A stretch of DNA of 64,000 bases. Source: Candidatus Acetothermia bacterium. GTDB taxonomy: Bacteria > Bipolaricaulota > Bipolaricaulia > RBG-16-55-9 > JANLFV01. The DNA is taken from NCBI GenBank assembly GCA_024653345.1, contig JANLFV010000001.1:148387-212386 (forward strand). The letters are read 5' to 3'. Within the stretch, counting starts at the first letter, position 1; every line of letters begins with the position of its first letter. The notes below the pieces were generated by a model. The model ran no database searches. It was not told the DNA's origin and saw nothing but the letters and a program-made list of their open reading frames with translations. Shown piece after piece: positions 5,205-8,420 of this stretch. The position numbers were made by a program, and so were the translations under genes.

Positions 5205-5245
5205 CACTGACCGTCCGAGTCTCTCGGCCCAAGGAGGTGGGGAAG

Positions 5246-6358
5246 ATGGCGAAGGCCGGGAAGCTGACGCGAAGGGAGTTCCTCAAGGGTGCGGGCGCCG
5301 CCGCATTAGGCCTGGCTCTGTCAGACATACTGCCAAGAAGGGCTTTAAGCCAGGCTGCGGGGTGCCAGCCGTATCGAGGCATTGCACCGACGGATTGGGA
5401 TTATAGTGCTCGAACAGTCATACCGCGGCGTGCCGAAATCCGCGAACACTGGCTGGATGAGATAAAAGAGCTGGGTGCCGACAGCGTGGAGATAACCATT
5501 CCTGTTAGTAGAGGTCCTGATCACCAAGTCGGATACCCTACCGAGTATCCCCCCTACTGGGAGCCGTGGGACAGCACGGTGCATGATGAAGGCATAAAGC
5601 GCTATGTCAGGCAGGCACAGGCGCGAGGGTTTAAAGTCATCCTTGACATCCCGAGCTTCCTGGGAAGTAGATATCCCCGTCCCCAGCCCTTCGACCTCGA
5701 CCTGTTCTATTCCAACCTCGAAACGATGGCGTTGAAGTGGGCCGAGATCGCCGAAGAGCTCGGTGTTGAAGGCTATTGTCCTGAAGGCGAGTTCGCATTC
5801 GAAGCTTCTCTGGGGCTGTCACCTTCCTTTACTAGGCCAGATGGATATGTGTCATTCCATACCCCGAGGCTCGCTGCATGGATTAAGCAGTTGATTCCCA
5901 AGGTCAGGGAGAGGTATTCCGGCAAGATAATCATTCAGGAAGATCCTTATGAGACACCGGATATCGATTTCGACGGGGCAGACTACATCGGGTTACACCT
6001 CCATGTGAAGGAGGGCGAGAGATATGTTCCCGGCCAGACAGTGCAAAACTGGCGAAGATATCTGAGAAACCGAATCACCGCGGCCCAGCAAGCCGCCCAA
6101 CGCGACAACTGTAGGGTGATGATTACAGAGGCGAGTTTCGGGATGATTCCAACGAACGGATACACTTCGCCAGACAATACCGTCGTAAACGAACAACAGC
6201 AGAGAGAATTGTGCGAAGCCTTCTTCCAAGAGGCTTGGGGAAAAACGGATGGGATATTTCCCTGGTCGTGGGGTTCTGAACCCGAGTTTAGGAGATCTCT
6301 TGCAGTTACAGATCGTCCAGCCGAAGAGGTCGTCCGGCGCTACTACCAGGGCTGCTGA
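5246..6358 (+). CDS. Tat-exported TIM-barrel glycosidase-like protein
   Basis: This 370-aa protein begins with a twin-arginine signal (TRREFLKG, R9-R10, followed by an Ala/Leu-rich stretch), so it should be exported folded. The remainder looks like a (beta/alpha)8 glycosidase of the GH-A type: repeated strand-helix units, an acid/base candidate in YCPEGEFAFE and a nucleophile candidate in the strand MITEASFG. I do not recognise the exact family. The ATG at 5246 is chosen because the upstream in-frame GTG (5237) lies inside the AAGGAGG site. Base composition is visibly lower in GC than in neighbouring genes, suggesting transfer. Its last 176 bp recur at 7332-7507. Confidence 0.7.
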   Translation: MAKAGKLTRREFLKGAGAAALGLALSDILPRRALSQAAGCQPYRGIAPTDWDYSARTVIPRRAEIREHWLDEIKELGADSVEITIPVSRGPDHQVGYPTEYPPYWEPWDSTVHDEGIKRYVRQAQARGFKVILDIPSFLGSRYPRPQPFDLDLFYSNLETMALKWAEIAEELGVEGYCPEGEFAFEASLGLSPSFTRPDGYVSFHTPRLAAWIKQLIPKVRERYSGKIIIQEDPYETPDIDFDGADYIGLHLHVKEGERYVPGQTVQNWRRYLRNRITAAQQAAQRDNCRVMITEASFGMIPTNGYTSPDNTVVNEQQQRELCEAFFQEAWGKTDGIFPWSWGSEPEFRRSLAVTDRPAEEVVRRYYQGC

Positions 6359-6359
6359 G
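6184..6359 (+). repeat. Direct repeat, copy A (3' end of the glycosidase-like gene)
   Basis: This is copy A of a 176-bp direct repeat whose partner is 7332-7507, 1148 bp downstream. By eye 171 of 176 bases match with no gaps. It covers the last 58 codons and the stop of the Tat-exported gene. A toxin-antitoxin pair lies between the copies. Confidence 0.9.
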
Positions 6360-6386
6360 CCAGCTTGGCCGGGCTGGTCCGTCCCC

Positions 6387-6415
6387 TTGCACCTCGAACG
6401 CTCGCCCGCTAAGAT
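6387..6415 (+). promoter_or_regulatory. Promoter of the VapBC-like pair
   Basis: TTGCAC (6387-6392) and TAAGAT (6410-6415) are 17 bp apart, followed by GAGGGGAG (6431-6438) 7 nt before the ATG at 6446. The toxin-antitoxin pair therefore has its own promoter inside the repeated segment. Confidence 0.6.
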
Positions 6416-6445
6416 GCGGGCGGGGTATCCGAGGGGAGATTAGCG

Positions 6446-6730
6446 ATGGAGAAGACGACAATTCTGCAATACCTGAGCGAGCTCGAGAGGAAGCTCGCTG
6501 AGCTGCGGAGGGCCGTGGAGAGGATGCCGGAGGAGCCTGGCGCGCCGGAGGCAGTGCGATTCGTGGACAAGCGTGCGCTCGCTTCCCTGATCGCCCGCTC
6601 CTTCCGCAAGATGGGTATTCAGCCTCAGCCGGTCGGGGCGGAGAGGCTCCAGGAGTTGATCGCCGCCTGCGGGGTGGAGCCGGAGGCGAACGCCTTCAGC
6701 CGCGCGATCATCGCGCTGCGCGAGGGATAG
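6446..6730 (+). CDS. Putative antitoxin partner of PIN toxin
   Basis: This is a 94-aa acidic/basic helical protein with a predicted N-terminal coiled coil (LSELERKLAELRRAVERM, residues about 10-27). It ends 3 nt before a PIN-domain gene. Size, position and coupling match an antitoxin. No AbrB, MetJ/Arc or Phd fold is obvious, so the antitoxin class is unassigned. The name rests on the toxin next to it, not on the protein's own sequence. Confidence 0.6.
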   Translation: MEKTTILQYLSELERKLAELRRAVERMPEEPGAPEAVRFVDKRALASLIARSFRKMGIQPQPVGAERLQELIAACGVEPEANAFSRAIIALREG

Positions 6731-6733
6731 CCC

Positions 6734-7225
6734 TTGCCTAACCAGTTCTTCTGGGACGCGAGCGCCCTGGTGAAGCGCTACGCGCCGGAGAGTGGCACCC
6801 AGTTGGTAAACCTCCTCTTCTCCCGGGTGAAGCTCGAGCGGATGATCTCCCTGAGCCTCGCGGTCAGCGAGGTGCTCTCCGTCTTCGTGCGGAAGAGGAA
6901 CGACGGGCTCATCACCGACGCCATCTTCTCCCAGGCGCTAGCAGAGCTCCGGGCTGAGGTGCTCGACTCCCCCTTCAGGCTGGCCCCCTTAGAGGACCGG
7001 CTTGTCTTCGCTTCGCACCCGCTGATCGTCCAGCACTCGCTCAACGCCACGGACGGGCTCGTCCTGCGGGCCGCCCTCGAGCTGCGGACCGCCTTGCGCC
7101 GCGCGGGGGACGATCTGGTCCTGATCGCTTCCGATCAGCGGTTGCTGCGGGCAGCGGACGCTGAGGGGCTCCGGGCCTTCAACCCTGAGACCGGCTCGCA
7201 GTCAGAGCTCGAGCTGCTCATGTGA
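6734..7225 (+). CDS. PIN-domain ribonuclease, VapC-like toxin
   Basis: This 163-aa protein has the four acidic residues of the PIN nuclease site: D8 (FFWDASALVKRY), E46 (AVSEVLS), D106 (NATDGLVL) and D134 (IASDQRLL). Such toxins cleave RNA and are held inactive by the upstream antitoxin. It starts at TTG, with GAGGG 7 nt upstream inside the end of the antitoxin gene. The pair is bracketed by the 176-bp direct repeat. Confidence 0.82.
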   Translation: MPNQFFWDASALVKRYAPESGTQLVNLLFSRVKLERMISLSLAVSEVLSVFVRKRNDGLITDAIFSQALAELRAEVLDSPFRLAPLEDRLVFASHPLIVQHSLNATDGLVLRAALELRTALRRAGDDLVLIASDQRLLRAADAEGLRAFNPETGSQSELELLM

Positions 7226-7331
7226 ACTCCCACCTCATTCGGAGCGCCCCTTCTCTTCTTGACTTGACCGGGCCTCAGATAGGATGCTAACCTGACGGAA
7301 AGGCAGGACTAAGTTGCGATATTATTACTCC

Positions 7332-7507
7332 CGTAAACGAACAACAGCAGAGAGAATTGTGCGAAGCCTTCTTCCAAGAGGCTTGGGGGAAAACGGACGG
7401 GATATTTCCCTGGTCGTGGGGTTCTGAACCCGAGTTTGCTAGATCTCTTGCAGTTACAGATCGTCCAGCCGAAGAGGTCGTCCGGCGCTACTACCAGGGC
7501 TGCTGAG
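7332..7507 (+). pseudogene. Direct repeat, copy B: orphan 3' fragment of the glycosidase-like gene
   Basis: Copy B keeps the reading frame for the final 57 or so residues and the stop, but has no start region. The five differences from copy A are two synonymous changes (GGA/GGG, GAT/GAC) and one codon replaced outright (AGG to GCT, Arg to Ala). The 106 bp upstream (7226-7331) contain only weak promoter-like strings (TTGACT/TTGACC near 7255). The gap 7508-7613 holds a short hairpin, CCCTTG/CAAGGG at 7510-7524, between convergent units. Confidence 0.85.
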
Positions 7508-7613
7508 GCCCCTTGAGCCAAGGGCCGTTTGCTACTGCAGGGCGAGCGCGGGCCGGATTGTCTACTGCGATGGCCTGCTCATCACCGCTCGATGGGGCCC
7601 CCCAGGGCTATGG

Positions 7614-8420
7614 TCAGTCGGCCTCCAGGTGGGCCAGTCCCTGGATAAACGCCTTCTGCGCGACCAGAAAGAGGAGCAGCATCGGCAGCGCCGCGAGGGT
7701 GTTGGCCGCCAGCAGCAGCGGCCAATCGGGCCCCAGCTCCGACTTGAGCGCGGCCAGCCCGACGGGGAGGGTCCGCATCCCCGGGCTCTGGGTGACGACC
7801 AGCGGCCAGAGGAGGCTGTTCCACTGCCAGAGGAAGACCAGAAGCCCCAGCGCTACCAGGCTCGGGCGGACGAGCGGGAGGAAGACCCTGAAGAGGGCCT
7901 GGAACCGCGAGCAGCCGTCGATCCGCGCCGCATCCTCCAGGGCCTGCGGGACTTCCAAGAAGGCCTGGCGCATCATGAAGGCCGCGAACGGGCCGGCGAG
8001 GAAGGGCACGGTGAGGGCATAGTATGTGTCGAGGATGCCCAGCCACTTCAGGATCAGGAAGGAAGGGATGAGCGTGACCTGGTGAGGGAGGGCGAGCGAG
8101 CCGAGGTAGAGATAAAAGAGCTTATCCCTTCCGGGGAAGCTGAGCCGAGCGAAGGCGTAGCCTGCGAGCGCTCCAGTTGCCAACTGGCCGAGGGTCACGA
8201 CCGCGGCCACGAGGAGACTGTTGAGGTAGAGTCGCGCTAATGGCAGCTCCCGCCAGGCCCTCTGGTAGTTCGAGAGCTGCCAGCCGGTCGAGAGCCACCG
8301 CTCCGGCTCGCGGAAGATCTCGGCCCCCTCCTTGAGGGAGGCCAGGACCATCCAGAGGAAGGGAAGGCTCACCAGGGCCACAATCGTGCTCAGGAGGAGG
8401 TGCCGTCCGAGCCTGTTCAT
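7614..8420 (-). CDS. Carbohydrate ABC transporter permease (MalG/UgpE type)
   Basis: This is a 268-aa inner-membrane permease with about six hydrophobic segments. The EAA loop that contacts the ATPase reads ALEDAARIDGCSRFQA, typical of the CUT1 sugar family. The ATG follows GGAGG by 7 nt, and that site overlaps the end of the upstream permease gene. No ATPase or binding protein is adjacent, so it probably uses a shared MsmX-type ATPase encoded elsewhere. Confidence 0.9.
   Translation of the reverse strand: MNRLGRHLLLSTIVALVSLPFLWMVLASLKEGAEIFREPERWLSTGWQLSNYQRAWRELPLARLYLNSLLVAAVVTLGQLATGALAGYAFARLSFPGRDKLFYLYLGSLALPHQVTLIPSFLILKWLGILDTYYALTVPFLAGPFAAFMMRQAFLEVPQALEDAARIDGCSRFQALFRVFLPLVRPSLVALGLLVFLWQWNSLLWPLVVTQSPGMRTLPVGLAALKSELGPDWPLLLAANTLAALPMLLLFLVAQKAFIQGLAHLEAD

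Follow-up and report, generated by a model that had tools for sequence, protein, structure and literature searches.

The locus analysed here raises the question of how a toxin-antitoxin (TA) pair came to lie between an intact gene and a second copy of that gene's 3′ end. The locus belongs to a 64,000-nucleotide stretch of the genome of a Candidatus Acetothermia bacterium, hereinafter termed the window.

A repeated gene end on either side of a VapBC-like pair

Gene A (positions 5237–6358, forward strand) is intact and codes for a 373 aa protein predicted to be Tat-exported and GH113-like, with Pfam matches to TAT_signal (E 8e-5) and to a GH113-like domain (E 4e-8); its GC content is 0.55, as against 0.64 for the window and 0.65 for the TA stretch. 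Sequence comparison within the window recovered a 176-bp segment of this gene in two direct copies, at 6184–6359 and 7332–7507, spaced 1148 bp apart and identical at 171 of 176 positions. The first (copy A) is the 3′ end of gene A; it takes in the stop codon at 6356–6358, so that the repeat extends one base past the stop. The second (copy B), likewise on the forward strand, is a 3′-terminal fragment that lacks the start and 5′ part of its gene, a member of the same family; it is open in frame for about 72 codons and could not encode the full protein. The final 67 bp are identical between the copies, and the codon differences comprise two synonymous changes (GGA/GGG at codon 335 and GAT/GAC at codon 338) and one complete swap (AGG/GCT at codon 352) that exchanges R for A. 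When the 64-kb window was compared with itself at E<1e-5, the only other matches were a 285-bp pair shared by two tandem permease genes and one weak inverted match; so sparse a yield indicates that the close repeat pair is not background. The repeat and its codon changes are thus as originally described, stop codon included, and the accompanying argument that the copies diverged under coding constraint or came from two paralogues is sound, but only three events stand behind it.

Between the two copies lies a predicted TA operon on the forward strand. Its likely promoter/operator (6380–6445), as read from the sequence, comprises the boxes TTGCAC and TAAGAT separated by 17 nt, with the palindrome CGCCCGC-TAAGAT-GCGGGCG surrounding the −10 box; this inverted repeat is hairpin-forming (z −2.4) and is of the kind that would be expected of an autoregulated TA promoter. 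The first open reading frame (6446–6730) encodes a putative antitoxin of 94 aa, which matched no known family in Pfam and other family searches and has a homologue beside the homologous toxin in a related genome (G012). The second (6734–7225, start TTG) encodes a VapC-like protein of 163 aa with relatives in 13 other genomes, whose best Pfam hit is PIN with an E-value of 0.02, below the cut-off. A multiple alignment of this protein with seven relatives (A1, 8 sequences) showed E46, D107 and D134 to be invariant and position 8 to be D or E; the window protein carries D8 together with the other three and is a divergent PIN protein and putative toxin. G012 has the pair as a whole, with 65% for the toxin and 50% for the partner over 56 aa. 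Searches by sequence against solved structures gave no match, and the toxin was found on no plasmid or viral contig. The conserved acidic residues and the conserved partner support the original prediction of a VapBC-like pair, with a predicted promoter of its own, between the copies.

Further copies of gene A and the flanks of the fragment

Searching the bacterium's own genome (1.71 Mb, 31 contigs) uncovered copies of the gene A family that the original prediction had not included. The very end of contig C14 is the 5′ half of one copy (70% aa), the very start of contig C6 is the last 63 bp of one, and each of these contig ends has exactly 55 nt in common with gene A. A fixed exact overlap at contig ends is the trace left by a k=55 de Bruijn assembler at a repeat; the genome thus holds at least one further full copy of the gene that was split by the assembly, probably with C14 on one side of the break and C6 on the other. 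Two separate copies are also possible, since in the sole genome of the same genus the genes that neighbor the C14 copy and those that neighbor the C6 gene end are on separate contigs and not at contig ends. Comparison of gene A (5237–5732) with the C14 copy (L009:10546-11050) revealed mosaic DNA identity, which is very high over the first ~140 bp, at the Tat-signal end of the gene, much lower in mid-gene and exact again over the 55 nt at the contig end; this suggests recombination or gene conversion between the two. In the gene end on C6 (L003:1-180), CGA stands where the stop codon would be and the frame stays open for another 38 codons, with a strong hairpin directly after. Beyond this genome, the search of relatives that the original prediction had proposed as a check recovered only distant relatives of gene A in 60 related genomes and GTDB contigs, and there was no match on plasmids or viral contigs. 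The same-genus genome has neither gene A nor its neighboring gene order, and two full tandem genes of the family were not found in any genome searched.

The 106-bp gap between the VapC-like gene and the fragment, which the original prediction had passed over, contains a stretch (7228–7303, forward strand) that is similar to the C14 copy in its promoter region, with the boxes TTGACT and TAGGAT separated by 17 nt. The local alignment score of 20 compares with 8.9 (sd 1.5) for shuffled sequences, was reached by none of 7,847 tiles of the bacterium's own genome in either direction, and exceeds the best score (17) of 36 promoter-like sites; the match is nonetheless short (~75 nt), and the −35 and −10 boxes that form part of it are consensus elements. 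On the other side, the downstream flank of the fragment (7508–7610, forward strand) shows a weak similarity to what follows the gene end on C6, with a score of 18 that 1.2% of genome tiles also attain (p ~0.012). In the same comparisons, the flanks of gene A itself showed neither likeness. Among the gene ends of A, B and C6 the similarity stops at or just past the stop codon, as expected of paralogues whose non-coding flanks have drifted. Two further candidate features were set aside in the course of these comparisons. A C-terminal extension common to the fragment and C6 (the 'LITAR' motif) reached only p ~0.01 against natural tiles and was kept as weak evidence, and a terminator hairpin common to every copy was rejected, as only the C6 hairpin beats shuffled sequences.

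Our preferred reading, to which we assign a probability of roughly 0.6, is that 7332–7507 is the remaining stump of a further member of the gene A family, with the TA pair in the spacer. The genome carries the low-GC, Tat-exported, GH113-like gene in several copies, one of which would have lain downstream of gene A. An internal deletion would have removed the coding region of this downstream copy between a point just behind the promoter and about codon 311, leaving its promoter region, 3′ end and downstream flank. The VapBC-like pair, with a promoter of its own, would lie in the spacer between the gene A stop and the promoter of the stump, having either settled in a recombination-prone stretch or helped to preserve it; the latter may apply because the antitoxin gene would be lost if the two gene ends recombined. 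The genome does hold further copies of the gene, on C14 and C6, the fragment has flanks like those of the other copy (strongly so upstream, weakly downstream), and the TA pair is conserved in another genome. As both flanks resemble those of the other copy while the coding region to codon 311 is missing, an internally deleted paralogue is the simplest account, and from these observations we infer the deletion and the order of events. That two of the three codon differences between A and B are synonymous also speaks for a paralogue. Against it stand the shortness of the promoter match with its consensus boxes, the weakness of the downstream match and the lack of two full tandem genes in the genomes searched. 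Moreover, the closest relative of the TA pair, in G012, likewise lies between two copies of a gene end, there of a different gene; under the stump reading this would have to be a coincidence or a general habit of TA pairs. Of the original suggestion that two paralogues stood here and the second was damaged, the multicopy family and the flanks of the fragment make the outline the best fit, but the TA pair does not appear to have replaced the 5′ part. Since the promoter region of the paralogue apparently survives between the VapC-like gene and the fragment, the coding region was apparently lost by a separate internal deletion.

Repeats around TA loci in related genomes

A serious rival, although the less probable reading, is that the TA pair inserted just behind the gene A stop and duplicated the last 176 bp of the gene, or that a circle carrying a gene end and the TA pair integrated at the gene end by a single crossover. 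Gene A would thereby have been left intact, and its native 3′ end and flank moved to the far side. Such an origin has a precedent in restriction-modification systems (PMC3031569; PMC3874152), for which long target duplication is described in works that these two sources cite (Nobusato 2000; Furuta 2010). A literature search covering mostly papers outside subscription returned only two reports that combine VapBC with target duplication, one of them a restriction-modification review already cited here.

We surveyed the loci of relatives of the VapC-like protein in 100 genomes of the class for bracketing direct repeats, 40 nt or longer with one copy on either side, at first within ~1.5 kb and later in wider flanks. 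In this survey, which was devised after the window had been seen and covers loci that are not independent and a pattern that is heterogeneous, 8 of the first 11 loci were bracketed as against 1 of 152 control windows; once the flanks were widened, more members added and the controls improved, the subfamily stood at 9 of 17 (window excluded), and four of its members that were found later had no brackets. Other PIN genes were bracketed in 6 of 52 cases, and the controls in 3 of 289 (none of 29 acetyltransferase genes, 2 of 108 positions on the same contigs and 1 of 152 other stretches). Read with the same post hoc caution, the subfamily is set apart from other PIN genes (p 0.001), and each of the two groups from the controls; at 6/52, PIN genes in general are not as strongly bracketed as the subfamily. 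Among the bracketed loci, L044 and L162 have low-complexity or dispersed repeats, L156 a promoter-like stretch and L161 tandem paralogues, which, like the four later members without brackets, counts against insertion. Cassette sites of the integron type were ruled out as the brackets, since the brackets differ from one another in sequence and many of them are coding. A GC-rich, palindrome-like intergenic repeat, CCCCTCCCCCTCTTGAGGGGAGGGG (query 687-727), has many dispersed copies in G007, G011, G016, G017 and G018.

The search for other TA pairs flanked by gene copies, which the original prediction had likewise proposed, yielded four loci besides the window at which both bracketing copies are gene 3′ ends (G012:C69, G017:C28, G017:C88 and G009:C23), an arrangement that favors insertion. 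At G012:C69 (L050:5389-6765 and 6775-7633) these are the ends of a rep-type gene: the closest TA relative adjoins a gene with a replication-initiator domain (Pfam RPA), and a degraded copy of that gene's 3′ end lies on the other side. The brackets at G009:C23 and G017:C88 are gene ends with the motif SEVRKL. G009:C23 (L144) and G009:C62 (L188) are paralogous stretches that carry different inserts at the same place, beside the 3′ ends of dockerin-domain genes. At G017:C28 (L158), a vapBC-like pair parts a gene from its right-hand neighbor, and the second gene end is frameshifted; the two genes are contiguous in G004:C6 (L187). For this related TA locus, G004 thus offers an empty site, with the gene and the right flank joined and a single gene end; the same-genus genome, devoid of gene A and the neighboring order, offers no such comparison for the window. 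The two bracketing copies at G017:C28 are 23% divergent, as orthologues between genomes are, and so look more like two homologues brought together than like a fresh duplication.

At the window itself, two features sit poorly with insertion. A mobile unit is not all that lies between the copies, as the ~106 bp behind the VapC-like gene resemble a promoter of the gene A family, which target duplication does not predict; in G012, by comparison, the homologous toxin terminates directly at the stop of the gene. Furthermore, the repeat stops one base after the stop codon, which under target duplication would reflect chance or selection for an intact gene A. The original view of an element that restores the gene end it inserts into thus gains from the related TA loci, which are bracketed above background and in one case have an empty site, and loses by the promoter-like gap in the window. 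TA modules with a VapC of this subfamily might also, in the manner proposed for restriction-modification systems, move with no integrase and come to rest directly behind stop codons, so that the target gene stays intact and its last 60–180 bp are present again on the far side; this broader generalization, under which the window would be one of several cases in the order, we hold to be improbable.

A misjoin of family copies in the assembly, whereby the fragment or its flanks would belong to another locus, is very improbable: C14 and C6 do break inside the gene A family with exact 55-nt overlaps, and the identity of the last 67 bp of A and B makes the assignment of the downstream flanks rest on read linkage, but the sites at which A and B differ lie at most 67 bp apart, which ordinary short reads bridge, and the 335-kb contig of the window (C11) runs on past both sides of the locus.

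Comparison with known systems and implications

Like type II VapBC systems (PIN-domain toxin, PF01850), the window pair combines a small upstream partner with a PIN-like toxin in one operon, has a predicted promoter of its own with a palindrome, and retains the four conserved acidic positions; unlike them, its putative toxin falls below the Pfam cut-off and its partner belongs to no known antitoxin family. With the long target duplications of restriction-modification systems, the locus has in common a selfish gene pair set between direct copies of a stretch of the order of 100 bp with no transposase adjoining. It differs in the promoter-like stretch of a paralogue inside the repeat bracket, and also in the kind of system, as such duplication was described for restriction-modification systems and the window pair is VapBC-like. 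With decayed paralogues of multicopy families the locus shares the retention of a promoter-like stretch, a 3′ end and a flank, and a fragment that cannot code for the protein; it is set apart from them by the TA pair that separates this fragment from the intact gene.

Under the decayed-paralogue reading, the locus would be an ordinary accessory stretch. Taken by itself it comes close to the ordinary; what deserves to be pursued is how TA loci are bracketed in the related genomes. Should it hold that duplicated gene 3′ ends enclose TA pairs more often than they enclose other genes, this would matter, since it would suggest either that chromosomal TA modules spread without a transposase or that they protect flanking duplications from loss by recombination.
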